Below the pieces are notes generated by a model, which saw nothing but the letters and a program-made list of their open reading frames with translations, did no database searches and was not told the origin of the DNA. A stretch of DNA of 64,000 bases. Source: Fragilaria crotonensis (lineage: Eukaryota; Bacillariophyta; Fragilariophyceae; Fragilariales; Fragilariaceae). Shown in pieces: positions 561 to 37,810 of this stretch; position 1 is the stretch's first letter; each line of letters begins with the position of its first letter. The stretch lies in assembly GCA_022925895.1 (NCBI GenBank), contig JAKSYS010000153.1, forward strand, positions 1 through 64,000. The letters are read 5' to 3'. The position numbers and the translations under genes were made by a program.

Positions 561-1452
561 TCAGAAAGGGATAAAGAACGTTCGTACGCGCTTGGATGGC
601 GATTCCAGGCTTTCTTCGACGTCCTCGTCGTCCAAGTCAAACACTGGCGAGGCTCGTTTGAGCGTCCACATATCCTCAAGTTCCAGTGACGTAGAATTCG
701 ATCGGAAGATGGATCGAGGCAAACCTGTTGCGATTTGAGCTTGATGTGGTTGGACCTCTCTCGTGGGGGACGGTACCAACGGCGCTGACGCCGATCTTAG
801 AAGTGGCTTCAGAGGCTGCGTGGAAGACTTGACATTCAGAGCGTTCGAGGAGCGGAGCACGAGAGTAATCGCAGTCATGATGGCAGATGAGATTGATGAA
901 GTAATTTGAAGGAACAAATTGTGAGAAACAGATAGGCTGAACGAATCCGAATCGTGCTCAGAAATATAATCACAAAGCCCTTCACCGCTTTCCAAGACCG
1001 ACTGAATCATAATTGGCGATCTAGGTGCACAAACTTTTTAAATTCAATTGTATCAGATAAAATATCTTCAGATCTGTAGTTCTGAATATTTCCGTTGACG
1101 GTTATTTGCGGTTTTAAATGTCCGCGCCAAATGAATAGAGAAACAACTGCCATCGGCGAGAAACGATGATACGACGATTTGAGAAACGCCACGGTCGCCT
1201 GTTGCGTCAATAAACGGAGATCTGACGATCATAAGAATGAATGCCATGAAGGGTCCATGATGCTGTTTCATGACCTGTTCCTCCTAGGTACCAGATGGAA
1301 TGCCTTACCTGGAGAAGCTTCCCGACGTCTTCTTCGACGGAGTATTGCTCGATAAACTTAAAAGGGCGCCGTTGCGATTTGCGCTTGATAAATTTCTCTT
1401 CATCGTTGCAATGGTTGTTGTTTTCGCCATGATGTGGAACGAACGTCGACAT
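561..1452 (-). CDS. hypothetical protein, two exons (tentative)
   Basis: This is an unrecognised small protein of about 194 residues. A proposed first exon at 1452..1309 encodes a basic, hydrophilic stretch starting MSTFVPHHGE and ending VEEDVGKLLQ. It runs into a good donor (CAG followed by GTAAGG). The second exon (about 1001..561) begins after a phase-matched CAG and reads SVLESGEGLCDYISEHDS. It contains a hydrophobic/serine-rich segment, then an acidic patch DLDDEDVEES followed by a Lys/Arg-rich C-terminus. The splice keeps frame and gives a natural-looking junction, but the intron (about 307 bp) is longer than usual for a diatom. The acceptor is a choice among several. An alternative is that only the downstream exon is real. 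No function can be assigned. Confidence 0.35.
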
Positions 1453-2536
1453 GGTGTTTTCCTTCGCCTGCAGTCCTTTTCGATGAGTGTGCAGGTTGTT
1501 CCGTACTCGGAGTACATTTTGTGTCATGTGGGAGGATGTGTCACTTCAGCAGGCACCGACTACCGGTAGGCTTCCAGTAGTCACGCTCCGTAGATTCGCA
1601 CCTACACGTTCTATGATATGGGGTTAGGTATGACTCGAGAAAACTGCCGTTTTCTATCGGCACAACCCTGCAACCAACGACAATCTCTTCGTCGGCAGAC
1701 TCCCGTTTGGCAGGTGTCACGTGTGTGATTGGCCACCCCATTCTCAACTCCGACCCTACTGCACTCGTACGGTACAGTACTACCAGTTGCGTTTCGCCAG
1801 GTTTCAGGAGACCAGCGTCCGGAGTCCGGAGTCCAGAGTCCAGTGTGTCCAGTGCCCAATGTTTTTATGTGCGAGTATGGATACTCCCAGTACTAATAGT
1901 ACTACCGAAGTACTACTGCCGACTTCCCACGTCAGACGTCAGAGTACTTCATGGTACAGTTCGGAATGTCCCAGTCCCGCGTTTCAAGGATGAGCCAGTC
2001 AAACAATGCAAGACCGACCTGCTCTGATTTGAGTCTCGGAGTTGCATGCCGGGAGGGCAAGGAGTGCCAACTTAAAAACCGGAGGACGCTACATATGCCA
2101 CCACGAACTACCTGGCACCGGTTTATGTATCCCTGGTAGCACAAAGAACCTACCGGTAGTACCAGTGTATAGATATAGACCACCTCCTTGTCCTATCATT
2201 CACTTTTATGAGGTGAGCTAGGCGTCTCACAGAATCGGTCGTACCAACAACTGTATAGCCACCGACATTACCTTTGCATGTCTCATGATTCGGGATTGTT
2301 TGAATTTCAAATTGCATTGACTCCTTCTCAATTCTCATATTATGTTTTCTCACGACCGACGCCGAAATTGTCAACAAAAATTTCGCCGCACTCATAGCAT
2401 TCCGAGTAGGAGACTTGGATGGCTGCCAACCTTTAAGGTAGCATCGTGATGCGTGAACGATGGTAAACTAATAGTTAACTTTCTACCCAGTCGTGCTTAA
2501 TCCATGCCTTGGATCCGACACTACTGAGCAATACCT
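1453..2536. repeat. intergenic with heptamer repeats and GTAC words
   Basis: No gene is supported. Around 1813-1850 there is a short tandem run of related heptamers (GTCCGGA, then GTCCAGA). Many GTAC words occur between 1750 and 2170. The open frames here are short and overlap on both strands. Confidence 0.45.
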
Positions 2537-5500
2537 TCAGGCCCGTTTGAAATCATCGGATTCTTCACCCAGATCCTCCAGGAGTACCCACTTGAAAAAT
2601 TTCGTCGGAGCTTCAATGCTCGCGTGGTTGCGTGTGATAGGGTTGTGGATACTGGCACGAACTTCCGATTCAAACACAGCAATCAACCGAGAAGCTGATG
2701 AGCTATCGGTGTTAACAGGGCCCGGGCGACCACCGCGAAGAGTTGACGAAGTGAAGTCTTCCTTTGTCTCCTTGGCAAAGACACCGCGATTCCTCATTTC
2801 GGCTCGAAAGGCGTCGCGGACGGAACGTAAGCAAGTCGACACAAGTACATGCGGAAAATAGCATTCAACTTGGTTGCTGCGCTTGTAAGCTCGCGACTTC
2901 GTAATCGCTCCAACGTTTCAAAAAGCTGAATGACGCAGGAATACCTTAGTCTTGCCCAATTGAATGCCCACCTTGGTGAAGTCGACAGCTCCACGGCGGA
3001 AATTACCATTGTATGCCTTGGTCGGAGGGGTTGGCGGAGTTTGCGTTGACGGTTCGGGTTTGGTCCATGGTTGATACCTAGATTTGACGGAACCTGCCGT
3101 TGACGAGGGTGGACAGTTGCTTGTATCCGGTGATGAGAGAGACTGGCTGCTAGAAGTTTTGGACCAAGTTGGTGGCGAGGAGGAATAACCAGAGTAACTC
3201 TTGGCCTTGGCGGCAGGCGGTTCGTGTTTCTTCGACGAAACGTCACTGGTGTCAACCAACCCGTTCTCTTTATTTTCTTCTGCTTCGAATGCCTGGACCT
3301 TTCGATAGATCACTTTCAGCAATTCCTTGCACATTTCCTTGTAGTTAACAGCGTCGGGTTGGGCTGTATTTTGAGAAGATGTAGCATGAGAAGGGGGTGG
3401 AATGAGCCACGGAACGCCCCACCTCGTGGTGGCTGCCATTTTGTGTGGAGCTGGTGCAGCCCAGGTGGGTCGCGACGAAGCCCCGTTCTCCAAAGCAGCA
3501 GGCGTCTTCTTCATATCTTTGGTCGCGACGCAACGATATCTCTTGCAAAACTCCGCATGTGGATAGTGCTGAGGAAACCAGCGCGACTGACTCGGACCGC
3601 CTCCAGAATGCCGCCGCATCTCAATTGTTCGGCGACTATCACAGGATCAAAGTCATCTGCCACTAAATGATCATTTGGTTTGAGACAACGTACGTAGTGA
3701 GGTGCAGTTTTGTCAATCTTGAAACGCAGCTCGCGTAGCTGACGTCGAAATTGTCCTCCCACAGTTGCTTTATGGCTGAAGATTCCGAGCGTCGGAGTTT
3801 GTACGGTGTGTTGATGTCCGAAGCAGAGTCATTGCTTGGTGGGAGCGCTTCACCGGACAGGACTTCGGACAGGAAGCAGACAAATGGATTGGTCGAGTTC
3901 GCTAACAGTACAGTCGATTCATTGTGCATCTCGTCGCGATTTTTTCTCAACAAAGCCATCTGTTGTATATTCAACAAATCCGGCATAGTGATGGACTTCA
4001 AATTGAAACACCGCCACTTGCTTGCGATTGGCACGGAACCGTGAGTGACCAGTGCACTTTGAATAAACATCCGACGCAAAAGAGCGATCTGTGGTCCCAG
4101 GAGCCCGACATTGGTCGTCCAAAATGTTGAGAATTCCAGATCCTCGTTTGTCAATCAAATCCAGAACATCTTGATTTTCTGGAAATTCGATGAAGGACCA
4201 TTCGATCCCTTCTCTTTCATACTCTGCTTGCTCATTCTTCAATACGAAAGCATTAAACTGCTGTTGGAGTGCTTCATTGCAATAGTTGATGCACAATTGC
4301 TCGAACGAGTTAGTAGTAAATGACTCGAAGCCAAAGATGTCCAAGACACCGATCGTTGCAACCGGCATATTGAGCAAATCCTCCTCGTCTTCCTCATCAG
4401 GATGATATGCAATCGAGTCATTTATTCGCATGACGAGGTATTGAAACATAGCACCGTATGTAGCCTTGATGAGGGCCTCTAAACACTTTTCAGCCTTTCG
4501 CTTATCCAAACTTCGTTTCACATACCCATCCCGACCGGCTTGAATAGAGAAAGTGCAAAGCGCCTCATTCAAGGCCACTGATGTTATTCCAAGCAGTTGG
4601 CACGCCGGCTCCAGATGAGTGGCTGGTCATCCATTCCGATTCATCATTGTCGTGTTCAATGAACACAATGTTCGACGCATGCAACAGCGCTGCCGTGACG
4701 GAAAAGATATTCTTTTGCTCTCTAGGTGCAAAATTCATGGTATTCATGGCAACTCGAAGAGCCTTGTAAGTATCTGCATCGGCAACACCGTCGCGCCGAT
4801 CTTGCGTTCCGGAATGCATCATGAAGAAATCTTCAGGTGTTGCCGAGCTTGCCAAAAAATAATGTCTTAGCTCCTTTGGATCCATGCCTCTGAGCAATTC
4901 AAAGAATACATGATAATTGCGCTCTCCGGGAGATTGGGTGACGAGTCGAACCTTTTCCAATAGATACGTGTCAATGGTGGCGCCAACCAGCCGTCCAGTC
5001 TGGGTGAATTGAATCTCAATGAATTTTCCGAAGCGACTGGAATTGTCGTTGCGGATGGTGCGGGCATTGCCAAAGCTTTCCAATATAGGATTTGATTGCA
5101 ATACTTTTGATTCAATTGAATTGCTTGAGAATTGAATTGAATCGTTGCGATTCATTGCGGCCGCGGAAGGAGGGGGCGACGCCCAATTCTTGACCTTGGC
5201 GTCTTCCGCACGCTTCTCCTCAACTTTCAAATAGGCACGTTTGACGGGCACGTGAGGAGCGGATGCTCGTTGACTAAGCGCAGCCAAATACTTCATAACA
5301 AATTTGGTGGTGACTGTCTTGCCTGCTCCACTTTCTCCACTAACGAGAATGGCTTGGTTGGCTTCGACTGAAGTCGGATCTTCCAAGGATGCTTCAATTT
5401 TCGCATCATGTTGCGAAAAGATGCATCGGCGATTTGATACACATGCGGTGGAAGGTCCGCCTTGAGTTTTCTCCGCCTTGTCCCAGTATCGCTTCATGCT

Positions 5501-6055
5501 TGATTCTCCGTAGAGTCTGGGAATACTCTTGAAAGGATTTAGGGCGAGCAGTACTGGACCAGTGGCTGTGTAGATTAAATCTTCCTTGTAGCGATGCAAG
5601 AGACAATGAACAACTGCAGGTTCGTGCAAGTGCGTGAGGGTAATTAAATCGTTGGGAGGGATGATCGTTCCCTCGGCATTTTTGGCGTAGTCATTGCCCA
5701 AAACAACGTGTCCGTCCTGCAGAGCGGTTGGTGAAAGGGCAATCGTTTCACCATCATCGTCAAGTTTGACAGAGATTGCTGAAGAACTCTGATTCACCAT
5801 GAGCCCACCAGTCCATCCCCACTGCTGCGTCCGCCCCATGCTTGCTCCCGTGGCGGAACTTGCTCCTCCTGCAACCGAGCCCACGTCGCTGTTGCTGTCG
5901 GCATCGCTGAAATACGACCCTGCTTTCCTCAAGGTCAATTTCGACGTAGATCCATACTTCGGCACCTTGGGATTGCGAATGGCTTCCACGACATGTAGCT
6001 GGACCCATACACGGGTGGTGCCTTGCACGCCGCCACCCATCTGGCTGCTGCTCAT
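2537..6055 (-). CDS. myosin heavy chain, motor plus short tail; frame interrupted
   Basis: This is an actin-based motor ATPase. The start MSSSQMGGGV at 6055 opens a 496-residue frame with an N-terminal extension, the P-loop GESGAGKT (residues 240-247) and switch I NDNSSRFGKF. Further frames carry switch II DIFGFESF, the relay region, HYVRCLKPND, the SRAGF motif, a converter (GKTKVFLRH) and one degenerate IQ helix (TKLNAIFRMYLCRL). After that comes a tail of only about 80 residues, so the whole is near 1,170 residues with no visible introns. The conserved sequence changes frame at least eight times. Examples lie near 5460 and 5405 (two compensating shifts around VYQIADASF), 4615, 3940-3945 (six T on the plus strand where five fit), 3770, 3560, 2935 and 2835. 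Each shift is one base with no gap, so introns do not explain them. The gene is either a very young pseudogene or carries consensus indel errors. I cannot assign a class. Confidence 0.93.
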
Positions 6056-7229
6056 GGTCGCGATCTACCAGAGAAAGGAAGTATGACAACCAGGTTTTGC
6101 GATATTCGTCTTATCTGCAACAGTACTGAATCTGTGTATTACTACGGAGTTCAAAGTTCAAACTCTACTGGTACACTGGTACTATGAATAAGTGCGCAAA
6201 CGATAGATATATGATATATCTTATCCTTATATCGCATATATATATATATATAGGTTATACTTGCACGATACGTACACAATCCGCATGACTGAGCGCCGTT
6301 CATCCAAAGACGTGGGGGTATGGGGTATGTGGTATGTATAATGTATACTCTTCACAGATCAGCCTTCGTACTCCGCGTATTACGTATTACGTAGTTCATG
6401 AGCCCGAATACTGAATACCCCTACTACTAGACTGCCGTTGTCCTGCTACTGGAGTATTGGAACTTCTAACATTCACACAAAGTATCATATGCATACTCGT
6501 CGTACTAGTACCTGGTACTCGAGTACCTGGTATTTGGCGTAATCCTCAGACCCCAATGCTTTCCCGGCACGCAGTTTTCCAGTATCCTGTACTGTAGATG
6601 TTAGTATGTCGGTATGCTTTGACGAATTGCATCCCGAGTACCAGATATCATACTACTTGTACTACGTATATATGTTTATGGGATATGGGCAGTCCCGCCG
6701 TCCCGCCTGACTGTCCAAACGAGTATTGTCGTTGAATCCGTTGCAGACGAGGCTGTTATGATCGATCATACGGACGGTGCACTTTTTCTGTTGATAGTAA
6801 GAGTAGACAACTCGCTGCTTGCTCGCTTTTACGGTACAACAGTACCAAAGCTGTACGGAAATCGTTGTCTGGGATATCGGACCCAGATAGAAGGTGGAAA
6901 AACACGGCTCGAGTTCATTAAAGAATATATGATACAGATTTGCACACTAATACTGAAACGTTCGATTCGCGGTTTCGTGCGTCCTGGTGCCGTTCAAAAA
7001 ATGAGCGCGTGCGGCTACTATACTCTATACTGTCCTCTGTACTCGGACTACTCGAGTACTTGCATACTTGGTACAAGTACGCTATACGTTGTAGGTGTAC
7101 ACCACTCCGTACTCGACGCTCAAGTTGTCATACTCGCCGTGTCCATGCAAGTTTCGACGTTTCCAAGAACACTTGATGTGTCTTGCTTGTTGGTCTCAAT
7201 CACAATTATGCACCGCTGTTCTCATTTGA
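6056..7229. repeat. intergenic, GTAC-rich, AT microsatellite
   Basis: No gene is supported. A TA run lies near 6200-6252 (repeated ATAT, ending in an ATATATATATAT tract). Dense GTAC words such as CTGGTACTCGAGTACCTGG occur near 6510. This is probably the promoter side of the myosin gene, but I see no distinct promoter element. Confidence 0.5.
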
Positions 7230-9130: not shown

Positions 9131-9139
9131 TACATATAA

Positions 9140-9691
9140 GGGGAAATTGCTATCGTACCTGTTATCTATTCCAAAATTGAAAACACCTGTTATCGGCTAT
9201 AATATACCCCTCAAATGACAATAATAGCATGCTAACTTTTACTATATCAAAAACACCTATTATCTTTTGCCATTTTTCAATAGCACCATTTATGTTTTAC
9301 ACAACTTGCAATATCACCTATTACAATTTGCAATAACACCTGTTTCGATTATGCCAATTTCAACTCCACGCAAATTATCGTACCCCATAACGTAGAATGC
9401 CAACACATTGACACACTTTCAAACGTAAGGATCTCACGCATTGCTTAGCATTATCATGTGCTTCTCACTGATGAAATAAGCTGTGTTATTCCATTGACAA
9501 TGCTTTGTGTGATGGTGTGAGGAAGTATGTGGTCATCTTGTGTGCTCTTGGGTACATTCTGGTCGCATTGTCATATGCCTTCAGATTTCTCGGGCTTGAG
9601 ATGGGTCAGTAACAAAAATCGCTCGTATACAGTGGTGTACAAATGTACAACAACGATCTTTTATGACACCAACACAACACAATCTCATCAG
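9140..9691 (+). repeat. left terminal inverted repeat of the MULE
   Basis: This is about 552 bp and matches the reverse complement of 13089-13637 with only scattered differences. For example, near the inner end ACAACAACGATCTTTT on the left corresponds to ACAACGACGATCTTT on the right. The first ~200 bp hold several short A/T-rich words resembling CACCTRTTAT, repeated at irregular spacing (9167, 9187, 9248, 9317, 9336). These could be subterminal transposase-binding sites. Confidence 0.93.
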
Positions 9692-9773
9692 CCATTCATC
9701 ATCATCAACAGCATCACCCTCTCCCTCCCCCTTCCCTTTTTGACAGTCCCTGACACTGATTTCTTGTCTCATT

Positions 9774-10525
9774 ATGCCACCAAAGAAGAAGCCAAGAAGA
9801 GCAGCAGTTGAGAAGAGCTTTTTTCCAGGAGACCCAAGGTTCTCTATTCCTGTCTCGGCACATGCAGAAGATGTGCAGGCGCTGCAGGAGAATAAGTATT
9901 TGAGTACAAACCTGTTGGACTACTTGATCCAAAGAGGAGCTCCATCTCCCACACCACCGTTGCTTCCCACTCAGGATGAAGATATAGCCGCACCACCATT
10001 GTACATTGGTGGATTAGCAACAACTTTCTTCATTGAGAAGGCAAATGAACTGGTGCTCGAATCAACGTCGCGAAAGAGCCTTGAAATCATTTGAATGAGC
10101 CTGAAGAGCTACAAAGCCACCACCCTTGCCAGGGGATCAAAGCTTGTTGTGCCAATGGTTCATAAGTCACATTTCTTTGTCCTTGTGATTGAGTTGACTG
10201 GAAAGCATGGTTGTGAATTCTACAAGGGTATTGAGTGCTACGACTCGATGGATTTTGCAGTGCACCTACGACAAGGACACGAGGTGCAGCAAGTCATATT
10301 TGTGCATTTCTTGCTGAATTTCACAAATTCGCGCTTTACTTTGTCTGTGATGATAAGTTTAAGATAGGTCGCCCTCAAACTCAGGTCAAGCACTGCCCAT
10401 GTCCGACTCAAGGTAATGTGATTGATTGTGGCCTCTTTACGATTGGTGTGGTTCTGCACATCATCGACAGTATTCAATCACCAATGAAACTTTCAAACAA
10501 GAACAATGACAAAACTACGTTCTGA
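9774..10525 (+). pseudogene. Ulp1/C48-type cysteine protease-like ORF of the MULE, frame broken
   Basis: It starts with MPPKKKPRRA, a nuclear-localisation-like basic start just inside the left inverted repeat. The central part shows the order of a Ulp1/SENP deubiquitin-like protease: catalytic His in VHKSHFFVLVIEL, Asp in ECYDSM, then an oxyanion Gln and catalytic Cys in TQGNVIDCGLF. An in-frame TGA at 10092-10094 separates the N-terminal third from the protease part. A one-base frame change lies between about 10270 and 10367. Similar proteases occur in some plant MULEs, where they may process SUMO or transposon proteins. The protease identification rests on motif order, not on an alignment. 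Confidence 0.7.
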
Positions 10526-10716
10526 TTTGGCAACTCACCTTGCCGCTGTTGAAAACTTATCCAAGTATCCACTTCCTTGCAGTGTCATCAGAGGATGCTT
10601 TCCGCATTGCTCACCATGGACGACACCGATGATGGCAGCATTGTGGTTCTTGGAGAATCAAAAATGCAGAGGACTCAGCAAATGCCGAGTCCTCAACTAC
10701 TGAAGTTGAGGTCATC

Positions 10717-13012
10717 ATGGACGGAAAAGTATCAACAAATGATGTGTCTGCTAATGTTGCAGAGTCATCCGCAGCCTTCTCATGTAATGTCATTGAGGGT
10801 ATAGTGGATGGTAATGTAGCAACTAAAGAGTCAGCAGCAAAGGATGCAACACAGTCGCCTGGCATGCTTAAGCTTCTCATGGAAATGATCTCACCGGCAA
10901 GCCGTGCCATGAAGAAGTGTGGAGGCAAGATATTGAGATTTGAGGAAGGAGAGGAGAAGAACGATAAGAACGATACTGAAAAGAAGAAGGTTGCTGGCGG
11001 TAGCGATATTGTACTAGTGCAAGCCAAGAAGACAGACTCCCAGGGCATGCCAAGTGAAGGTCAGGAACAACAAGGATGCCAACCACTACAAGCACCTAAC
11101 AAAATGAACACCGACGCAAAAGAGCATGTTGAAGATGTTGTATTTTCCAAACTAGTGAAGGAACTCAAAATTGAGTCCTTCAAAAGCCTTGCTGATGTGA
11201 CTCCAGTCATGGAGCAATACCAGAAGCAGTCGGGATGTCAGGTTGCGATTCGTCGAAGTGAAGTGGACAAGTTCCGGGTCTACAAATGCGCTGAGCACGT
11301 CAACTGTGTGTTCAAGGTTCATGTTGGGAGGAGACGAATAGATGGCAAGTATGTCATCAAGAAGCAATCTGTGTTGCGTCACACAACGGTCCGTCGTCCA
11401 CTCAAAGCAAGTGATGGGCGACAGTGGAAACAGCGGCGCGCTGAAAAAGTTCAGGAATACATTGAAGAGGCTGCAAAAACGAAGGTTGGAATACCAACTG
11501 CCCGAGATGTGATGAAAACGGGATCTCTGAAGGAGATTCTGTGTCTTACTTTGCTGCCTACCGTGGCCTCCACAAAGACTCACTAATGTCAAAGCACAGA
11601 GCAAAAGAAGGCTACCAGCAAATGATTCCATACCTGCAACAGCTACTGAAAGGCAATGCGGCTTCAGTCATCGAGTGGGAGACAAATGAGGATCATGAAT
11701 TACTACAGGCTATGGTGATTCCGGGATTTATGGATGGCATCCTTAAGTTTGTACGCCCCGTGATCTCACTCGATGCGGCGCATATGAAATGTGCTGACCA
11801 TGTTGGCACTCTTTACATTGCTTCTGTATTGTCAGGAGCTAACGAGGTATATCCGATTGGCTTCCTGCTGTCTTCTGGAAATGAAGACCGAGAAACATGG
11901 ACACACTTCCTGACAAAGCTGAAACAGGCTTGCCCTTCTTTGTGTGAAAGGGATGCGACAACTGAGCTGAATCCTTTCATCTTTATCTCAGATCGTGACA
12001 AGGGACTTCAACAAGCCCTGGATGATGTGTTCCCAGACAACACAAACGTGCTGTGTGTCAAGCACATTGAAGCCAATGTGAAGCAGAGGTTTGGTGCACA
12101 ATGTGCGGCATATGTATTTCGGATTGCACGCACATTCTCTACTCGGCAGGAGAAGTTCTTCATTGATCAAGTACGGAAGCTAAGACCAGCCGCTGCAACC
12201 TACATAGAAAGCATTGATGGATTGTGGAAGAATACATCTTGGCTGGATGAGAACATGAGACTTCCGCCTCGGTATGGAATCATTACATCAAACACAAGCG
12301 AATCTGCCAATAGCATGTTCCTTGCACCTCGCAGCATGCCATGGCTCAAGCAATCGAGAAGATTATTGACATCATGACGAGTCGCATTTCAAGAAATAGA
12401 ATGAAGTATGTTGACAAGAATCCAGATAATGTTGTTGCTGCTGTCTGGCAAAGGATTAGAGATGAAAGGGATGCTTCGGCCGGCTTTGATGTGTACGAGT
12501 TGGCAAGTGGAGGAGGGCAATATAAGGTAACACCTCAAACACAAGAAATGAGTTTGGGGGATCGTGCAACACACATGATTCGGGTAATCAAAAGGTGGTG
12601 TACTTGTGGCTTCTGGCAAGATATTGGTATTCCGTGCCGTCACTTCATGGCATGTTTTCGAAAATTGAGAGATAGAATGGAATTCACAAGTCTGTTGTCT
12701 GAATCACACGATGGCATACCAGACTTTTACAAGTACAAGGCACTGCAGCTTCTTTATGAACCGATCATTGTTCCAGTTGTGGTAGACACAATTGCTTATG
12801 ACGGAAAAACAAAGCCTCCTCCACAAAGAATCAAGAGACAACCTGGTAGACCAAAAGTGAAAAGATACCGCAGACGGAGTGAACTCTCTGACCCATCAAA
12901 GTCGCCAATTGTGTGTTCCAAATGTAGAGAGCGTGGACACAATCGCCGAACATGTGGAATGAAACCAAATGTGGTCCTTACAGAGGTTGCTGACAACAAA
13001 CAAGAAAAGTAG
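10717..13012 (+). pseudogene. MULE transposase (DDE, SWIM finger, CCHC knuckle), frame broken twice
   Basis: This is the cut-and-paste transposase. The N-terminal part is acidic/charged. It is followed by a MuDR-type DNA-binding zinc domain (about 11220-11400: C and H residues in YKCAEHVNCVFKV and VLRHTTVR). The catalytic MULE core has VISLDAAHMK (first Asp), FISDRDKGLQQAL (second Asp), a CVKHIEAN motif and NTSESANSMF (likely third acid). Then come a SWIM zinc finger WCTCGFWQDIGIPCRHF (about 12598-12648) and a C-terminal knuckle CSKCRERGHNRRTC. Frame changes of one base lie at about 11541-11586 and 12341-12377. Conserved sequence continues across both, so the whole would be near 765 residues. 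The start at 10717 is the first good ATG of the frame, and an upstream link to the protease ORF is possible. Confidence 0.9.
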
Positions 13013-13088
13013 CTCTTAAAGTAGTTCAAGTTGCATGTATATGTGGTGTTGTGGCTGTTGCTCTTGATCATGAAGAACAGCTACTTCA

Positions 13089-13637
13089 TGATGAGATTGT
13101 GTTGTGTTGGTGTCATAAAGATCGTCGTTGTACATTTGTACACCACTGTATACGAGCGATTTTTGTTACTGACCCATCTCAAGCCCGAAATCTGAAGGCA
13201 TATGACAATGCGACCAGAATGTACCCAAGAGCACACAAGATGACCACATACTTCCTCACACCATCACACAAAGCATTGTCAATGGAATAACACAGCTTAT
13301 TTCATCAGTGAGAAGCACATGATAATGCTAAGCAATGCGTGAGATCCTTACGTTTGAAAGTGTGTCAATGTGTTGGCATTCTACGTTATGGGGTACGATA
13401 ATTTGCGTGGAGTTGAAATTGGCATAATCGAAACAGGTGTTATTGCAAATTGTAATAGGTGATATTGCAAGTTGTGTAAAACATAAATGGTGCTATTGAA
13501 AAAATGGCAAAAAGATAATAGGTGTTTTTGATATAGTAAAAGTTAGCATGCTATTATTGTCATTTGAGGGGGTATATTATAGCCGATAACAGGTGTTTTC
13601 AATTTTTGAATAGATAACAGGTACGATAGCAATTTCC
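13089..13637 (-). repeat. right terminal inverted repeat of the MULE
   Basis: This is the reverse complement of the left repeat, ending GCAATTTCC at 13637. It is followed directly by the target duplication TACATATAA at 13638-13646. Confidence 0.93.
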
Positions 13638-13942
13638 TACATATAACGATGCTACGTACTTCGTACTGCTACTGTGCCATATCCATAATTGCTCTACTGT
13701 ACTAGTATCATATGAAGAGCAGAGCGTAAGGCGTAAGTTGAGTAACGGTGGTAAGTACAAGTATGCAGTATGCATACTCGTACTGGCTTTTTTACATTTT
13801 TGCTCCGAGAGTGCTCAGTTGCACAATCATCCGAATGAGGGGACTGCGCATTCCTTGCATGGCGTGATTGTGTTCCGCCGCAACGTGCAGCACACATCTA
13901 ACACAAGACATATGAAGCAGCTTCATTTGTTTTGATCCTATA

Positions 13943-15554
13943 ATGTTCACAAATCGAAATCGAAGTCGTAGCGCAATGGTGCTTGTGTCAATAGTTATGG
14001 CCATAATTGTTCGGGGTGTCTCCGCATTGTATGTGACACCTCCATTTTCTCTCAGCCAAGCGAAAGGAGACAGTTCGCAGTTTTCAATCCAATGTGTTTA
14101 TACCATTGATTGTTCTGCCACCATCCTCAATTATAGCCAACGAATCTTCGGACGAGGATCCTGACACGCTTCCAATGCCAGCTCAGGAATCCTCGTCGTC
14201 GATGGCTTTTCTGAGAATCACAGTGGATACATGATTAACAGAGCCATCCACGACTACAGTGTTGGAGTGGTGCGTGTCATAAGCCCCTACATGGCGCGAG
14301 GATTGCAGAAGCAACAAGAGGAACTTCAGCAGTCGCAGGAGCATCAGGAACTACCGGTAGACTTTTTCCAACAAACGGCTCCACTCGACCCCCAGCATCT
14401 CAAACGATGGTTGGATTCAATACCGTTTCCTTGAAGCCGTCATCTGTGAATCAGACAGTGGACTGGACTATGCAGAACGACTGGCTTGTGCAATAGATGA
14501 ATTAATCACGTCGAAGCCACCACTAAAACACAATGGATATGTTGAGGCTCGGAGAGATAAGTTTAAAATGAATGAGCGATGTCGGTCACGAGGAATTCAA
14601 ACCGTATGGCAGGCTCTTTGTCGGACGCCAGAAGAAGCACTCAAAGTGGCGCAGGGCTCTGCCACGTCTTGGCCATGTAACATTGCCGACCATGGAGTTA
14701 TCATCAAACCTCGTCGTGGAGTAGCTAGTGATCGTGTAGCGCTGTGTCAAACGCTTGACGACGTATCCGCAGCAGCTAAGCAGATCTTGGATTCAATTGT
14801 TTTTGGGACCTATGATGTGCACCATGATGCTGTCTTGATGCAAGAGTATGTTGATGGGACGGAATATGCGGTCGACGTCGTTACGAGGGATGGAGTCCAC
14901 AAAACGGCGGCCTTGTGGGTCTATGAAAAGACATCCACCAGCGACGACGGCACCTCCAATCCCTTTGCATACCTGTCTGGAAAGCTGGTTTCTGCCGATG
15001 ATCCTAATCATCCTTTTGCACTTGCTATCATGGACTATGTGGATGACTGTCTCTCTGCCTTGGACATATTCTGGGGCATGTCCCACAGCGAGGTCAAGGT
15101 TAGCTCGAAGGGACATATCCGACTCATGGAAGTTAACGTCCGACAACAAAACGATCATTTTGGTCCGATATGCAACATCTGTATGGGGTACAACGCATTG
15201 GATCTGTGCCTTTCTGCTTTTCTGGATGATCCAAATGATGACGACAGCTTGTTCGCTTCCGTTCCAACTCGCCCCATGCTCTTGCGCCATGGAGTAATTG
15301 TCAATTTGGCATGCTTTGTCGAGGGACAAGTTTGCAAAATCCATCACCTAGACGAAATACAAAGTCTTGAATCCTATGTGACTATGGAACTTTTTCCTGG
15401 ATTTGAAGTTGGCAGTACTGTCCGTCGGACGAAAGATATTCGATCCGATTGTGGGTGGGTTCATTTGGTCCATGAATGCGAGGATTGCATGATGCGCGAC
15501 TACGAAATTGTGCGAAGCAGAATGCCTACCATGTTTCAAGTGCAGAACGACTAG
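13943..15554 (+). CDS. ATP-grasp domain enzyme with signal peptide; frame interrupted
   Basis: This is a carboxylate-amine/thiol ligase-like protein of unknown substrate. It starts MFTNRNRSRS, then a hydrophobic stretch VLVSIVMAIIVRGVSAL, a signal peptide or plastid-type presequence. A Rossmann-like pre-ATP-grasp segment ILVVDGFSENHSGYMINRAI follows at about 14190. Next come CESDSGLDYAERLA and the ATP-grasp core: VIIKPRRGVAS (nucleotide-binding Lys), VLMQEYVDGTEYAVDVV and the metal-binding IRLMEVNVRQ. Between the presequence and the core the same frame contains one TGA (14162), which an intron within about 14060-14190 would remove. I could not fix its borders. A one-base shift lies near 14417-14425, after which the frame is open to 15554. 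Carnosine-synthase-like and biotin-carboxylase-like families share this fold. The gene converges on the alpha-galactosidase, 131 bp away. Confidence 0.82.
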
Positions 15555-30232: not shown

Positions 30233-31271
30233 CAGGGTTGGCAGTATCGTTGTGTTTGTTTAATTCAGCTGTTGAAAACATTTAAAAAAAACAAGTTGTT
30301 TAATTGAAATCTAGGTTAGGGTTAAGGTTTTACGGTTGTGATGCGGTTTTTTCATCGACAAGTCTCATTGCTCATCACATAACTATACTGTTTATGGGTT
30401 GAAACAGCATCAAAATGCAGAACATCAGTTAAGTGATGCATGTGAGACAATTCAATACATTTTGATTCAAGAATTGTGAGACAAAAGGATGTTATCAGTG
30501 GACACTTAGGGGATCCTTACCATTCAGTTGGTGGGATACCTGCATGCAACAAGGCAGAGCATTGTCAGGCATAAGTGCAACTACAAGTTCATGCTGATTA
30601 GTCCTTAGGGCTCCTTTCTATCTTGATTATCCTTGTTGTCTTGTTCTCAAGGCTTTGAACCGTATTGATTGGTGGTATACTCCGAGTACTTGACAACTTG
30701 GAGTACTGTAGTACTTACTACTTTGAATGTTGCTGTTCTAAACAAAGTTGTTTTAAACAGTTTTAAACTGTTTAAAACAAATTCAAAATCTGAATTTGTT
30801 TAAAACACAACAATAGCCTGGCAGGCAGGTGTTTTTCGCGGAGTGGTTTTTTTGGTTTTTATTCAAAAAACCACCTCGTTTTGGGTGGCAGTGGTTTTTT
30901 ATTTTCGAGCTAAAAAGGTGTTTTTTCAAAGAGTTCGTACGTGTTCACGCAGTACTGTGTACTGCATTCCACTGTATACTTGTTACTGTATCACGTAACA
31001 ATACTACAGTACACAGTTTCAAACTTCGCCACATTCAGATATGCAGTTGCAAACTACAAAGAAGGTTGAATAGATGTAAGGATGTAAATATGTTAGAGAA
31101 CAATTGCTTTGGTGTTATTGCAAGCATCCAATGAAGAATATTGGGTCCAACATCAAATAAAATGAGTGTAGAATTAAAGACCTTACTGTGTATAAAACAC
31201 TAATGTTTTTTTGTGTTTTTTTCAAAAACCACCTCGGCGAAAATCGGGACCGGTGGTTTTTCACAACCCTG
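30233..31271. mobile_element. possible outer non-autonomous element with CAGGGTTG ends, hosting the hAT-type MITE
   Basis: The left end CAGGGTTGGCAG (30233) and right end CAACCCTG (31264-31271) are inverted. Both ends continue into related GGTGGTTTTT / AAAAACCACC tracts (30830-30905 and 31215-31262). The 571-bp MITE at 30245 interrupts the left end. I could not find a clear target duplication for this outer element, so its borders are tentative. No coding frame inside is convincing. Confidence 0.4.
30245..30815 (+). mobile_element. hAT-type MITE, copy 1
   Basis: The unit is 571 bp, starting TATCGTTGTGTTTGTTTAATT and ending in the inverted form (TTTAAAACACAACAATA). Near the second end lie nested palindromes (AAACAGTTTTAAACTGTTT). 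It is the same family as 37216-37810 in the opposite orientation, alignable along its whole length. The interior has no long frame. A clean target duplication is not evident here. Confidence 0.8.
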
Positions 31272-31395
31272 CTGCCTGGTACTTGTACTGTAGAACATTT
31301 TTTTGAAGACTAATGACCTGATGAGTGATGTACTGTATACATTTATAGTACTGTACAAGGTGCTACTGCTGTATGCATATGATACGCAACATATT

Positions 31396-31770
31396 TACAG
31401 ATAAGACTTTAAGCCAACGCAACAGTAGACGAGTATCACTACCCTACTACTCCTATTGCAGTATCTTAAATGTCATACAACCAGTAATCGCTACGTAAAT
31501 GACATACTGACGGCCCTAGAGGACATTCGACCGCAACGCGGTCGAGGGCAAACAACTCGTTTCCTGATGGAAATCACTCACTTGTTTTGCAAGTGAGCGA
31601 TTTGAATACATCGGTGATGCGATATCAGCCGATGTACTTTTTTTGCTAACCCACCCGCCGTCCCCAACAGCCTCAGGCCAGTGCTTTAGTGAACCATCTG
31701 GGAATCCGTTGGACTCCTCGGATATTCAATAATCGTCATAGTCACTACGTTTTTAGAGCATCCTCCAAGG
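31396..31770 (+). repeat. second copy of the DIRS-like terminal sequences, left and right parts adjacent
   Basis: From 31396 the sequence (ACAGATAAGACTTTAAGC...) parallels 19464-19690. Shared words include ACAGATAAGACT, CTGACGGC, CTAGAGGAC, TGCAAGTGAGCGATTTGAAT and GGTGATG. From about 31641 it parallels 27960-28100 (TTTTTTTGCTAACC, GTGAACCATC, TGGACTCC, CACTACGTTTT). Here the left and right terminal parts abut with no interior. The right part seems to resume at 34085-34150 and 34776-34830, separated by later insertions. It is degenerate and was probably made by recombination or as an internally deleted copy. Confidence 0.6.
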
Positions 31771-31773
31771 GAC

Positions 31774-31980
31774 GATATCAAACGTTATCAAATGCCCGAC
31801 CGGCGCGCAAACTCGAGATTTTCGAAAAAAGCATCTTCCAAGGCTCGATTATCAAATATTTGACCTCCCGCATGACGCAACGCGCCGGCAGGGCATTTGA
31901 TAAATTTGATAACGCATTTGGTATTATCAAATCAGGGGTGATTTGATAATACCAAATGATATCAAATCCGATATCAAATC
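31774..31980. repeat. foldback element built from TTTGATAA words
   Basis: GATATCAAACGTTATCAAATGCCC with GGCGCGC on the left mirrors GCGCCGGCAGGGCATTTGATAAATTTGATAAC on the right. Next to it lies a perfect hairpin at 31920-31953: 15-base arms GGTATTATCAAATCA and their complement around a GGGG loop. The element ends with direct GATATCAAATC words. There is no coding capacity. Confidence 0.7.
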
Positions 31981-32020
31981 ACGGAAATCCGTGTACAAGT
32001 TACTTCGGAGTTGTACTCTA

Positions 32021-33271
32021 GTGTCTACCCACCCGGTCCATGTGCCTTAATTAATCCACTCATTTGCCTTAATTAATCCCATCATTTTCGTACGGGTGCA
32101 AGACGCTTTTCTGTACATTTTATACTCCGGGCCACTGAAAAAATGCTCCAATTGCAGTCATCAATATGAAAAGATAGCGACACTTATCTGCGTTCATTTG
32201 ATACATTTTCATCTTCTTTATTTTCAGTGGAAGTCGCTGATGTGAAAAATAGCTCGATACTTGATGTTTTCATCCCCAATCGGTGTCCGACAAAAGGTAT
32301 GAAATCTTGCGTAGCGTGTGGTAGATGTTCTACGTAATGCAAAAACAGTTCCTCTTTTTTCAAGTCCATTTTCATTCTATTCTGACATTCCAAATTGTCA
32401 CGTTGAGGCAAACATGCTCAGTGCCCGATGACCCACTACTTTTAGAAGTATCTTGTATCCTAAGTCTTTAAGTCATCTGTTGCGAAATCATCTCTGACGG
32501 TTCATTTAAAATCTGTTATGGATTAGTGAATTTTTTCATACCCTTGGTATATATTGTACACGATTTCTGTGTACAAATTGTCCGTTAGGGTTCCTCTTTC
32601 CAATCATTATTTCTAAGTGAATACTGCAAGCTGGTTAAATATCCAGAGTGCATCATCACCATTTGAAGTATACTTAAGATGTTGATCACCTCAGTTTTTT
32701 CAAATGTCAGAAGAGAATGATCTAAAACCATCGGATCAGACATCAGCTTTTCCTCCGTAGCCTATGGTATAAATTCTACACGATTCTTGGACATATTTTT
32801 CTTCTGGTTCGATCTCTATCTCTAATTGAATGCTGTTGCTTAAATACTGAAAATTAGGACAAGTTTCAAGTATGAAAACAACAGTTCAATGTATTTGACA
32901 CACAGCGGTCATCTTGCTTTTGGTTGAATTTGACATGAACGTAATTGAACCGTCGGCCAAAAGGTCTGTTAGAATTGTGGGTTTTACGTAGCATCTGGTA
33001 TTATTTCTACGGCTGGTCAAGATCAGAAATGACGTGAAAAAATTGGAGGGTAAAAAAAAATGATGAAGAAAAACACTTGCATCTCAATGATAAACATTAT
33101 TCAGATACTGAGCTTTAAAACCATAATCATTCATATGGTTCTTGAGCCAATGCCCAAGTTTCGAGTCCAACGGACGAGGTACAAGATAACAGGAACGATT
33201 TCCGACTTGAGCAAATATGGGATTAATTAACCCCAAATGGGGTTAATTAATCCCGTCGGGTGGGTAGACAC
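32021..33271. mobile_element. mariner-type non-autonomous element, TA target
   Basis: The element is 1,251 bp. The terminal inverted repeats GTGTCTACCCACCCG (15 bp, perfect) are flanked by TA on both sides (32019-32020 and 33272-33273). Both subterminal regions carry TTAATTAATCC words (two on the left, three on the right, there as GGATTAATTAACCCC). The interior has no transposase. It contains a diverged direct repeat of about 225 bp: around 32550 'GGTATATATTGTACACGATT' and around 32765 'GGTATAAATTCTACACGATT' begin parallel stretches. Confidence 0.85.
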
Positions 33272-33273
33272 TA

Positions 33274-34084
33274 GTATCTTTCCCTCCGTGAAAACCTGCG
33301 CCTGCTGTGGCACAGGGTCCGATGTACATATTTGTCGAACAAGAATGCGCCATCGGCCATCGACAACAACCATGAGTCGATTTCATTGTCTTCACGTCGG
33401 TAGACCGCGATGATATTCCGGATGAAGACTGTGTCTACTACAAGAACAAGAAGAATAAAGCTGCTTGCGGTCGCACATCTCACAGCAACAAAATCCTCAT
33501 CCTCATCTTCTTGCTTTATCATCTCCTTCACCATCGTAGTTGTCGTCCATCGAACCCGATACTGGATTCTGCGTTCACATTCCCTACTGTCGACGACGAT
33601 GTCGATACTGGATCGGAGTACAACCGCACAACAATTCTACCTCCTCAAGCGCATGATCAAGTCAGAACGTAAGGAGCAGCAATCAATAACAACAGTACTA
33701 CCGTAGTAAATGATTATTACTACCGGTAGAGTACTCTTTAGTAGTCTAGTACTAGTAGTTGTCATCAAACAATTCCTCTTGTGATTCTTGTTCGAGGGAG
33801 GTCGGCAGAGGATATTCTGATAAAATTTGATATTGTGAATTTCGCGCCTTGGAAGTTGCCTCTTCAAGAACTTCGATGTCGAGCAGGCCAGCCATTTGAT
33901 TAAACCGTCAGAGAATGCAACGGTTGTGGAAGACACTGTTTTTGTCACTATTACGTCATTTGATCCGGAAAATTGTGATCCCTTGGAGGGATCTCTATGC
34001 TACTATATCCAACGTTGCCTATGTACTATGTATTATGTATGCATACTACCTGGGTACGTGATACCGCAGCATACCAGACTCTTA
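33274..34084. other. intergenic, no supported gene
   Basis: Short frames on both strands (98 residues + from 33410; 103 residues - from 33948) overlap each other and show no motif. A poly-Ser/Val composition arises from simple TCATCCTCATC repeats. I see no gene here. Confidence 0.4.
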
Positions 34085-34152
34085 CGTAGTCGCTATGTGA
34101 TTACACTAGCACTTCCCATACCGTTCAACGTGCAGTACAGCCTAGGCCTCGG

Positions 34153-34769
34153 CAGGGTAAGGTAATTACCTTTTACCCCGCTGGTAAAGGGTAAAGGTAA
34201 GGGTAAAGTAACAACTTTCCTTAAAGGTTATTTCGCAAAGGGTAAAGGTAATGAATTTTTTTACCCTTTACCTTTTCAAAGGGTAAAGGTAATGACTTCG
34301 TTTACCAGGGTAATTACCTTTTAACCTATATTTTACCTTTTAAGGAATATCTGATTTTGAGGTGCATCATAGGTAGAATGTATGAATGTACTTCCATGTT
34401 GGTACCATAGCTAGAGCCTTGAACTTGACAACTAGGCTGCTGTATGCTGCTCCTCCTACTGATTCTTTGGAACAATTCCTTGCTCCTGGCTTGAAACTGC
34501 GAGAAGAGTTGTGCTTTGTGCTGCTGGTGTCACATGATTACCCGGGTAATTGCCCGGGTAAAGGGTAAAAGGTAATTATCAGGGTAAAGGGTAATTACCC
34601 GGGTAAAGGGTAAAGGTAAAGGTAACGCCCGCTGGTAAAAGGTAAGGTAAAGGTAACACGCTCAGTTTTACCCTAAGGGTAAAGGTAACGCATTTGCTAA
34701 AGGGTAAGGTAATGGGTAAGGTAAGAGTAATGCACTTTACCTTTACCCTTTGACTTTTACCTTACCCTG
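34153..34769. mobile_element. GGTAA-rich non-autonomous element
   Basis: The element is about 617 bp. It starts CAGGGTAAGGTAATTACC and ends TTACCTTACCCTG, inverted to each other. It is flanked by the direct repeat CCTCGG (34147-34152 and 34770-34775; seven bases if the border is moved by one). Both arms are degenerate arrays of GGGTAAAGGTAA and its complement, able to fold back on each other. The unique centre is about 150 bp (34370-34535). It lies inside the degenerate DIRS-like terminal copy. The CAGGG ends hint at hAT, but the duplication is shorter than eight. Confidence 0.75.
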
Positions 34770-35509
34770 CCTCGGCTGTACTGTACAGCCGAGGCGACTT
34801 CTGGGAATCCACAGGATTCGCATACTCGGACCACATCCCTACGTCTTTATATGACTACCAGTACCATTAGTACAAGTGCTGTAGCTCTGTTACCTGGTAC
34901 ATAGTACGTAAAGCGTCAAGGACCGTGATGTGTGATGAACTCTAAATGAGGGTAAATTTTTCGTACGTCACACGTGCCATGTGATTTCGACAAGGCTACC
35001 GGGTACGAGTACTTGTAGAGTCGGCATGGTACAAGTACTCTCCAATGTCATAGAGGTCGCCATACGTCATACTACGAGGTATTCGTACCTGGTACATTCT
35101 ACCATACAGATTCTGTTATGACGTCAGCACTACGTCGACGTTGGACAAGCACAAGACGAGTCCGTGCCATTTGTGTACTGACGTGAGGTACCAATTCCCA
35201 TGTACCTGACGGAACAACCTGTATCTACAGATAGCAACATCCTTCTGATGCTATATCATTAGACCTTAATTCGCCCCCTTCTGGATTTCGTCATTGTTTC
35301 ATTCCAAACACTTTGCTGAGGCTTGAGACACTGCACCGTCCGAGTTTCTGTTATACATCTCCAAGATTCGTGTTTCTTTCCTCGTCTTTTGCTTCGCCAG
35401 CTATCCTGAGGCGACCAATAGCTTTGTTTTGCTTCCTTCTATCACAACAGCCAATACGGATTCATTAACATCGTGGCCACTGTCGACCAAGACAACAATC
35501 GCCGTCAGC
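34770..35509. repeat. intergenic: end of terminal copy, GTAC-rich DNA, promoter side of folD
   Basis: 34776-34830 (CAGCCGAGGCGACTTCTGGGAATCC) parallels 28244-28270 of the DIRS-like right end. Beyond it lie GTAC words to about 35200, then a less repetitive stretch of about 300 bp that should include the folD promoter. I see no TATA-like box I would defend. Confidence 0.5.
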
Positions 35510-36466
35510 ATGACTGCAATCGATATTGACGGCATTTCAATTGCCAAAACGATTCGTCAAGAACTGAAAGCAGAAATCGAAACCCTGCCACAGGTGCCAG
35601 GTCTCGCCGTTGTGCTCGTTGGCGAACGTCGCGACTCTCAAACATATGTCAACATGAAGAAGAAAGCTTGTGCTGAATGCGGGATTACCTCCTTTGGATA
35701 CGATTTTCCTGCGACTGCGACGCAACAAGAAATAATGGATTGCATTTCATCCCTAAATGATAACCCTCTTGTCCATGGCATTCTCGTGCAACTGCCACTT
35801 CCACCGCACGTTCATGAACACACGGTATTGGAATCGATTGCTCCACACAAGGACGTCGACGGCTTACACTCTCATAATGTCGCCTCCTTATCCAGTACTG
35901 CTACACATGCTGGGAGCACCGCCTTGGATTGGAAGGAATTGACCACCATCCCCTTTGCACTTCCATGCACTCCGCAAGGTTGCATCGAATTGTTGGATAG
36001 ATCTGGTGTCGTGTTGGAGGGCAAACGTGCGGTAGTGTTGGGACGCAGTAATTTGGTGGGAATTCCCGTTGCACTCCTGCTGATGCATCGAAACGCAACG
36101 GTTACCATTGCCCATTCGCGGACGCACAACGTACCGGCAGTTGTTGCTGAAGCGGACATCGTTGTTGCCGCTGTTGGGAAAGCCCATCTGGTCAAAAAGG
36201 AATGGCTCAAAGAGGGTGCTGTGCTCATCGATGTTGGAATCAATAGCGTGGATTCCCCAACTGCCAAACGAGGGTACAAGTTGGTCGGTGATGTGGATTA
36301 TGAAGATTGTCGGAAGGTGGCCAGCATGATCACGCCAGTTCCTGGAGGGGTCGGTCCTATGACGATTGCGATGCTAATGCGCAATACTGTCCAAGCATGC
36401 AAGCGGACTCTAGTGAAGGATAATGCAGTAGCTTCCGGAGTCGACGAAGAAAAAAGGAACAAGTGA
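35510..36466 (+). CDS. folD: bifunctional methylenetetrahydrofolate dehydrogenase/cyclohydrolase
   Basis: This enzyme interconverts 5,10-methylene-, methenyl- and 10-formyl-tetrahydrofolate with NADP in one-carbon metabolism. It is a clean 318-residue frame starting MTAIDIDGISIA at the first in-frame ATG. The open frame extends 27 codons further upstream without an ATG. Motifs: catalytic Lys50 in SQTYVNMKKKAC, GILVQLPLPPH, DVDGLHS, PCTPQGCIELL, the NADP-binding VLGRSNLVGIP, GAVLIDVGI and C-terminal TPVPGGVGPMTIAMLM. Length is as usual for monofunctional FolD, somewhat enlarged by an insert after NVASLSSTATHAG. No strong organelle presequence is visible from this start, so I infer a cytosolic enzyme. 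It is one of the unbroken genes in the window. Confidence 0.96.
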   Translation: MTAIDIDGISIAKTIRQELKAEIETLPQVPGLAVVLVGERRDSQTYVNMKKKACAECGITSFGYDFPATATQQEIMDCISSLNDNPLVHGILVQLPLPPHVHEHTVLESIAPHKDVDGLHSHNVASLSSTATHAGSTALDWKELTTIPFALPCTPQGCIELLDRSGVVLEGKRAVVLGRSNLVGIPVALLLMHRNATVTIAHSRTHNVPAVVAEADIVVAAVGKAHLVKKEWLKEGAVLIDVGINSVDSPTAKRGYKLVGDVDYEDCRKVASMITPVPGGVGPMTIAMLMRNTVQACKRTLVKDNAVASGVDEEKRNK

Positions 36467-37215
36467 GTGTTTGTTCACGTGTGAGGATGAGTCGAGAATG
36501 GGTTGGCATAGGACGAACGTGAACGGTCACAGATCGATTTAGTCCTCTAGTGCTTCCTACGCTGTGGTTTCAGAATTTATCTTATAAAGGAATTGCCATT
36601 GATTCTAGACTCTAGGAGCATCGCCACCGTTGGCGCTATTTTTGTCCTCTTACACCCTTCAGTTTGATGGTATCCAATTTCGCACGAGGTTGATTTTGGC
36701 TCAGAAGAGATGTGAGGTGGTTGGAGATAGTATTTTGTTCATTTGAGCGAGAGCAAGAGATTTCCTGTCATCTAGATTTTTTTTTTTTGTTACTGCTGAG
36801 TCGACGCGACCCTACGATGCGGAGTCTTCAGGACAGTCAGGATCAAACCGCCGAACCCACGGCCCACGGCACAAGTTGGTGTTCCAAGTTCCAAGTTCCA
36901 AAGTCAAGACTCCACGCTACTGTAATCATTCGTACTGGTACTTGAAAGTGGACTCTACGAGGTGCTACTTGTACAGTACCAGCTTACTCCGGTAGATGAG
37001 TCTAATACTGTCGCTACGATTCACAATTCACAACAGAGCACAAGTACAAGTACAAGTACTTGTTCTCTCTACTAGTAGTAGTCGCAGGTCGCAGCGTCGC
37101 AGGTCGCTGTGCTCGCAGGGATTCAGTGACGTGTGTGACTTCGAGTGAAAAAAATGAAATAGATTCTTCGTTTTAACCACCGATGGACTATGCGCCCACT
37201 CGTATGAGTTACAAC
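36467..37215. repeat. intergenic with GTTCCAA heptamers and GTAC words
   Basis: No gene is visible. A tandem GTTCCAA run lies at about 36880-36903 and CAAGTACAAGTACAAGTAC at 37038-37060. Repeated GTCGCAGGTCGCAG units follow at 37080-37110. Confidence 0.5.
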
Positions 37216-37810
37216 TATCGTTGTGTTTTAAACAAATTCAGATTTTGAATTTGTTTTAAACAGTTTAAAACTGTTTAAAACAACTTTGTTTAAAACAGCA
37301 ACAGTTCACAGTAGTAAGTACTACAGTACTCCAAGTAGTCAAGGACTCGGAGTAGACCACCAATCAATACGGTTCAAAGCCTTGAGAACAAGACAACAAG
37401 GATAACCAAGACAGAAAGGAGCCCTAAGGACTAATCAGCATGAACTTATAATTGCACTTATGCCTGACAATACTCTGCCTTGTTGCATGCAGGTATCCAC
37501 CAACTGAATGGTATGGATCCCTATGTCCACTGATAACATCCTTTTGTCTCACCATTCTTGAATCAAAATGTATTGAATTGTCTGACATGCATCACTGATG
37601 TTCTGCATTTTGATGCTGTTTCAACCTATAAACAGTATAGTTATGCGATGAGCAATGAGCCTTGTCGATGAAAAACCGCATCATAACCGTAAAACCATAA
37701 CCCTAACCTAGATTTCAATTAAACAAATTGTTTTTTGAAAGAAAAAGTTGTTTTAAACAGCTGTTTAAAACAGGGTGTTTAAACAGCAATTAAACAAACA
37801 CAACGATAGT
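37216..37810 (-). mobile_element. hAT-type MITE, copy 2, with perfect 8-bp target duplication
   Basis: The unit is 595 bp. It begins TATCGTTGTGTTTTAAAC and ends AAACAAACACAACGATA, flanked by GTTACAAC at 37208-37215 and 37811-37818. Eight bases is the hallmark of hAT elements. It runs antiparallel to copy 1 at 30245-30815. A palindrome block (TTTAAAACAGCTGTTTAAAAC) near the right end is extended relative to copy 1. There is no coding frame. Confidence 0.88.

Follow-up and report, generated by a model that had tools for sequence, protein, structure and literature searches.

The window analyzed here is a stretch of 64,000 nucleotides from the diatom Fragilaria crotonensis (positions 1 to 64,000 of contig JAKSYS010000153.1, assembly GCA_022925895.1, forward strand), and at positions 9140-13637 it carries a Mutator-like transposon (MULE) with long terminal inverted repeats (TIRs) and a 9-bp target site duplication (TSD). 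Relatives of this element elsewhere in the genome carry a peptidase C48 (Ulp1-type) domain and a MULE transposase in one open frame, and we are nearly certain that the family encodes a fused C48-MULE transposase.

The left repeat (9140-9719) starts with GGGGAAATTGCTATCG, the left terminus of the element reading GGGGAAATTGC, and the right repeat occupies 13053-13637, its end having only two terminal C where most other copies have four. Aligned over 9142-9719 and 13053-13637, the arms are 96.3% identical across 588 alignment columns and measure about 580 bp each. The initial annotation was right in describing long and nearly identical arms, although it gave their length as about 550 bp. The 9-bp duplication that it reported is present as TACATATAA on both sides of the element (9131-9139 and 13638-13646), and the same 9 bp is found in the copies on contigs C71 and C298. 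The coding region on the forward strand opens with an ATG at 9774, 54 bases away from the left repeat, and its stop at 13012 is 40 bases away from the right one.

In this copy the coding region is divided among several frames, all on the forward strand. The N-terminal part of the fused protein (9774-10367), with a basic start, an FPGDPRF motif and the first part of the C48 domain, is interrupted by a TGA at 10092-10094; the C48 His and Asp are at 10170-10172 and 10242-10244, positions counted by hand. The second part of the domain follows in a different frame (10235-10525) and holds the Gln and the nucleophile Cys (10427-10429) in CPTQGNVIDCG. An acidic and variable linker and a C-x4-C...H DNA-binding-like region, which in relatives resembles PF03108 below its cut-off and whose C-x4-C spacing upstream of the DDE was read by eye, span 10660-11583. 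The DDE transposase core lies at 11466-12377, with PF10551 at 11760-12074 and the Asp, Asp and Glu in SLDAAH, ISDRDKG and SNTSE, and the C-terminal part (12314-13012) consists of a SWIM finger at 12581-12652, a basic stretch, a CCHC motif at 12914-12955 and the stop.

The MULE transposase, SWIM finger and CCHC knuckle named in the initial annotation are all borne out. Two Pfam domains exceed their cut-offs in the frames of the window itself, MULE DDE (E 6.6e-10) and SWIM (E 5.4e-5), and the CCHC motif was read by eye, Pfam CCHC models giving no match to the window frames and one C2H2 model matching only below cut-off. PF02902 (peptidase C48) exceeds its cut-off in relatives and not in the broken pieces of the window: taken singly, the protease frames 9777-10094, 10095-10367 and 10235-10525 gave no C48 match in Pfam because the reading frame is broken and the domain split between frames. 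The piece at 10235-10525 nevertheless aligns over the Gln/Cys region to C48 domains that do match Pfam. An Rfam search of the window returned nothing.

Protease and transposase in one frame

The genome searched was the window's own assembly (62.1 Mb, 881 contigs); the published genome of strain SAG 28.96 is described in its report as 61.85 Mb in 879 nuclear contigs, obtained by Nanopore sequencing and polished with short reads (PMC9476933). The searches score only the best candidates, so that all counts of loci and matches given here are lower bounds. In the less decayed relatives of the window element the order C48, finger-like DNA-binding region, DDE, SWIM and CCHC is found within a single open frame, 1042 residues long at most. 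At seven loci C48 and MULE domains both exceed Pfam cut-offs in one frame, L004 (858 residues), L010 (801), L025 (717), L057 (997), L058 (1042), L059 (967) and L060 (968). Some of the seven may be allelic: L025 and L057, which may be one insertion, have 99.5% identity over 5.2 kb, and L058 and L059 have 99.1% over 5.2 kb, with right flanks that differ. The protein of L058 (P0002), whose ATG is the second codon of the frame, spans C48, the DNA-binding-like region, DDE, SWIM and the CCHC motif. PF10551 exceeds its cut-off in the window and in relatives, with D, D and E invariant in all six rows aligned, and the SWIM model PF04434 does so in the window, P0002, P0003 and P0004.

The initial annotation had proposed a Ulp1-type protease gene linked to the MULE, with a genome search for copies with open frames as a check. 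That search found C48 and DDE linked in other copies, the seven above in one frame. The C48 domain was thus correctly recognized, but it is not a second gene: at these seven loci it forms the N-terminal domain of the transposase, and a separate linked protease gene was rejected since relatives carry both domains in one frame on the same strand. Among the 44 C48 matches in the genome, 28 have a same-strand MULE or P0002 match within 6 kb with C48 coming first, five have a MULE on the opposite strand only, and 11 have neither. From the last group, the match on C129 (L028) shows DNA-binding and DDE pieces by tblastn, the one on C16 belongs to a window-type copy truncated where the contig ends, and the one on C193 overlaps a copy of the type found on C137, described below. 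P0002 as a query matched at least 36 loci, 34 of them with the DDE part, and by a scripted rule 27 of these 34 also have the C48 part; two of the remaining seven, on C298 (L002) and C80 (L022), show it on tblastn.

It could be argued that the long frames are chance run-ons and that a separate transcript encodes the protease, like that of plant KI-MULEs. Such a two-gene arrangement would be in accordance with the separate frames of the window and many copies, with the five C48 loci having a MULE only on the opposite strand (C137, C313, C579, C20 and C346), and with the C137-type copy (L040), which keeps C48, DNA-binding and CCHC parts without the DDE and occurs as four full-length examples. Against it speak the seven loci where a single frame of 700-1042 residues contains both domains, and also the C137 type itself, which reads as an internal deletion of a fused gene, and we regard the two-gene arrangement as very improbable.

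The four-place repeat in question (C137, C313, C579 at 30982-34353 and C20 at 11765-15119) is 96-100% alike over 3.4 kb and has its C48 gene on the opposite strand to a MULE match 3.2-3.3 kb away. On C137 (L040) and C313 (L041) this gene keeps the DNA-binding and CCHC ends without DDE and SWIM, and on one strand its match to P0002 jumps from query position 555 to 974. The opposite-strand cases read were C137 and C313, with C346 in part. An ancestral two-gene architecture was rejected as their explanation because C137 and C313 read as internally deleted fused genes; the C137-type copy may be a derivative carried next to or within a different MULE. Many of the remaining MULE matches in the genome fall in a lineage that matches the PF21056 model. 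No C48 was seen in the frames of this lineage that were read (L043, L052, L055, L036, L042, L053, L054 and L056), and the P0002 search matched none of L042-L056.

The C48 domain and its history within the element

A profile of ten C48 rows, picked from the available loci with L021 and L022 left out, was compared with PDB and matched SENP1 (2.1e-8), SENP7 (4.6e-7), SENP2 (6.8e-7) and Ulp1 (7.8e-5), which is enough to settle the family of the fold. In the alignment to SENP1 the catalytic His and Asp are kept in 9/9 rows reaching them and the Gln and Cys in 10/10, in the order of Ulp1. The motif FPGDPRF or FPGDPRY stands upstream of the domain in the N-terminally complete groups (L058, L030, L035, L028, L040 and L010); L057, whose frame starts later, is without it. 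When the element C48 was compared with host gene L027, whose frame covers only the first half of the domain, no match was obtained (E 2.4).

The domain could also be a polyprotein protease, which cuts the linker to free itself, much as viral proteins are processed by relatives of the adenain type, and has no role in SUMO removal. Its N-terminal place and the variable acidic linker, 7 to 28% identical between groups while the domains are 29 to 67% identical, would suit such an enzyme. The same can be said of the residue after the catalytic His, where the lid Trp of SENP1 is replaced by Phe (HFF or HFY), so that specificity or substrate may differ. On the other side, the profile matches deSUMOylases across the domain, the deneddylase SENP8 appearing only at 0.18-0.46, no viral protease is among the 20 listed matches, and no conserved cleavage-like motif was seen by eye in the linker. 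We consider a self-releasing polyprotein protease unlikely. Against viral contigs the C48 alignment gave 49 candidate stretches and the transposase alignment 65, none of which was confirmed.

Trees of C48 and of the DNA-binding and DDE regions were built for 19 loci, and 10 of 16 splits occur in both. Four of the six discordant splits lie among nearly identical copies of the window subfamily, one concerns the trio L024/L025/L057 and one the place of L028. The association of C48 with the MULE is carried by six diverged groups, between which the splits match except for L028.

Constraint on the protease was estimated by Nei-Gojobori omega on the N-terminus plus C48, with fourteen pairs computed. 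Omega is 0.118 for L030-L034 (22.5 synonymous and 9.5 replacement changes) and 0.049 for L034-L035 (6 synonymous and 1 replacement, only 7 changes in total). The values for L058-L035 (0.123) and L058-L031 (0.175) are only indicative because dS is near 2 (saturated), and pairs with saturated or infinite dS were given no ratio (L058 with L060, L004, L028 and L040; L028-L010). Five pairs show weak constraint: L058-L059 (0.845), L004-L010 (0.582), L025-L060 (0.553), L057-L060 (0.537) and L031-L035 (0.387). We tentatively ascribe this to the ends of the frames, which are out of register in several of these loci and inflate replacement counts. L004-L010 has an omega of 0.897 in the DDE part as well, which makes this pair uninformative for either half.

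These weakly constrained comparisons would agree with C48 being a captured host gene fragment and a functionless passenger, as in plant Pack-MULEs, and MULEs are described as capturing gene pieces that include ULP domains (PMC2528002, PMC13317346). Catalytic residues kept in every row reaching them, omegas of 0.118 and 0.049 in the two well-framed close comparisons, a history shared by both halves across diverged groups and the same order and strand in 28 of the 44 C48 matches argue against a passenger, which we disfavour as quite improbable. Kept catalytic residues, congruent deep splits and purifying selection in some pairs favour instead a single old fusion inherited as a unit, the simplest reading of these sequences. 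The initial annotation had left the choice between an ancient association and independent capture; the six diverged groups and their congruent splits, L028 excepted, speak for the former, and independent recent capture is disfavoured.

A proposed role and its precedents

The window element is probably one of the decayed members of a TIR MULE family of autonomous type, whose sole gene encodes a protein in which a variable linker joins an N-terminal Ulp1/SENP-like C48 domain to the MULE transposase. We lean towards C48 being an active isopeptidase in living copies. The transposase half would bind the GGGGAAATT ends and cut and paste the element, and the tethered protease would act where the transposase is bound, where it would take SUMO, or a tag related to it, off the transposase, repair factors or silencing proteins on the element. 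Copies that are CpG-methylated and silenced could then still be transposed. That the protease serves to remove SUMO at the element is put forward tentatively. A more far-reaching proposal seems doubtful to us, namely that of a self-targeted anti-silencing transposase that strips SUMO from silencing factors on its own copies, with one ancient fusion kept through the diatom MULE radiation and the DDE-less C137 type (four loci) as a possible trans helper or spoiler.

Several observations weigh against the reading of the element as a MULE with a deSUMOylating transposase. Beside the Phe after the catalytic His and the five weakly constrained pairs, the PF03108 model, for a DNA-binding domain of MuDR/WRKY-GCM1 type, reaches only 13 to 18.7 bits, with a cut-off of 25, in all six proteins showing it, Ulp1-like PDB chains appear only at E 0.74 when P0002 is searched as a single sequence, and the PIAS/SIZ-type MIZ finger was found in the host below cut-off only.

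The host genome has 12 matches to SUMO-like domains and 13 to C5-methyltransferase domains. In eight window-type copies (L001, L004-L010) transitions affect 70/1941 CpG positions, 48/11068 other C or G and 14/2438 CHG positions, and a second MULE lineage (L044-L051) has the same bias, with 10/1447 CpG transitions versus 2/10089. In-frame stops within P0002 matches are TGA in 84/128 cases, as decay of CGA would give, a count made without base-composition control. Because of the CpG bias in both families and the presence of C5-methyltransferase domains, the elements appear to have been CpG-methylated in the past, although errors of the nanopore reads at methylated positions could contribute to this bias.

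Protease-bearing MULEs were said in the initial annotation to be known from plants, in accordance with published descriptions of ULP domains, in separate frames, in MULEs of Arabidopsis, melon, rice and grapevine (PMC2528002, PMC13317346). In the accounts given there, the KI-MULEs (Kaonashi; KIU genes) of Arabidopsis are non-TIR elements with the ULP gene in reverse orientation to mudrA (PMC13317346, PMC2528002), and the ULP1-bearing MULE of grapevine has its ULP domain downstream of the transposase frame (PMC2528002, PMC13317346). The diatom element is like these in being a MULE with a Ulp1/C48 domain kept over long times. It is unlike KI-MULEs in that its C48 is an N-terminal domain of the transposase, on the same strand and in the same frame, within an element having TIRs of about 580 bp. 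Ginger1 is described as having an integrase-type transposase with a C-terminal Ulp1 domain (PMC2836005), so that C48 (Ulp1) is encoded in a DDE transposase in both cases, C-terminal and with an integrase-type enzyme in Ginger1, N-terminal and with a MULE enzyme in the diatom. The paper on Ginger also cites Mutator elements of hydra and lancelet with Ulp1 (PMC2836005), and the domain may well be fused in those elements too.

MULE-Diatoms, lineage 37 of Dupeyron and colleagues, is described with SWIM, one open reading frame (ORF), TIRs of 123-124 bp and no TSD (PMC6446971). Compared by description only, both are diatom MULEs with SWIM, whereas the element studied here has TIRs of about 580 bp and a 9-bp TSD. 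The words C48, Ulp1, peptidase and protease are absent from the main text of that MULE survey (PMC6446971). VANC of the VANDAL MULEs is described as a separate DNA-binding anti-silencing protein (PMC5735166, PMC13317346), some forms of which carry a Ulp1 domain without an assigned function (PMC13317346). VANC is therefore a MULE-encoded protein that counters silencing, while for the diatom element we only infer such an effect. Searches of the open-access literature, a scope which leaves subscription papers and Repbase outside, found no description of a diatom MULE with a C48 domain.

C48/Ulp1 domains recur in unrelated DNA transposons, such as plant MULEs, CACTA and Ginger1, and a MULE with a Ulp1 domain was already known; what is new is the arrangement, the diatom host and the evidence of a long joint history. 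In the diatom element protease and transposase are on one chain, with catalytic residues intact by sequence. This makes the role of the protease testable in one protein, in which a single change of the Cys separates the two activities. The C48-MULE association is extended to stramenopiles, in a genome with the CpG-decay mark typical of methylated repeats.

Copies, age of the insertion and neighboring features

At least 89 stretches of the genome match the window element, and nine of these, the window included, cover nearly its whole length at 93-100%, so the element is not a chance arrangement. Three of these nine, on C62 (the window), C71 and C298, have the same flanks and the same duplication and therefore represent one insertion. 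Their left flanks show 0 substitutions over about 1.5 kb and their right flanks 4 to 11, while between the element parts there are 14 to 25 substitutions and also 13 to 23 gap events. Since 10 to 17 of the gaps lie in homopolymers, the assembled frames are partly unreliable. The window copy is broken by the TGA at 10092-10094 and by four frame changes (frames of 9774, 10235, 10660, 11466 and 12314), and C298 has an open frame at both spots, near 11.53 and 12.35 kb, where the window shifts frame. The TGA is common to all three contigs and, in comparison with most other copies, falls within two neighboring changes of CpG type; being on all three, and from CpG-type decay, it leads us to read the window insertion as truly dead.

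In the window subfamily all five insertions with both flanks (C62, C875, C285, C230 and C566) show a perfect 9-bp, mostly A/T duplication, a length within the 8-10 bp that characterize MULEs. The insertion at L060 also has a 9-bp duplication and L021 is without matching 9 bp. The diverged subfamilies (L060 at 893-5245, L021 at 2158-6493 and L058 with its right end at 5221) share the terminal GGGGAAATT motif of the window family, and the 511-bp arms of L021 are 99.4% identical. The window copy (L001) is 0.9898 to 0.9908 identical to L004, L005, L006 and L007, i.e. at about 1% substitution distance, in a comparison from which L008 was left out. Its arms differ from each other at 12/555 compared sites.

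Recent movement had been deduced in the initial annotation from the nearly identical ends and the clean duplication. The first of these arguments was rejected, as the arms of a DNA transposon are inherited and not made at insertion and thus give no clock; the perfect duplication and the distance of about 1% to other insertions do speak for a movement that was probably fairly recent. A search for an empty site found none: the joined flanks matched the three filled contigs and otherwise only a stretch of C533, which is 74% alike and crosses the junction by 14 bases.

Next to the element in the window are an ORF with a myosin head (4568-6064, reverse strand) and an ATP-grasp ORF (14361-15551, forward strand), the element lying about 0.7 kb upstream of the latter. 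Further along, at 30301-37721, there is an inverted repeat whose arms measure at least 517 bp, are 94% alike, extend to the limits of the compared stretch and flank an ORF for methylene-tetrahydrofolate dehydrogenase/cyclohydrolase (35327-36463). The ORF at 52078-53487 has a weak integrase-core (rve) match below cut-off and is possibly a remnant of a long terminal repeat (LTR) element. Elsewhere in the host genome silicon transporter domains, which mark it as that of a diatom, were found, three of them in one open frame of 1456 residues (C97:29749-33762).

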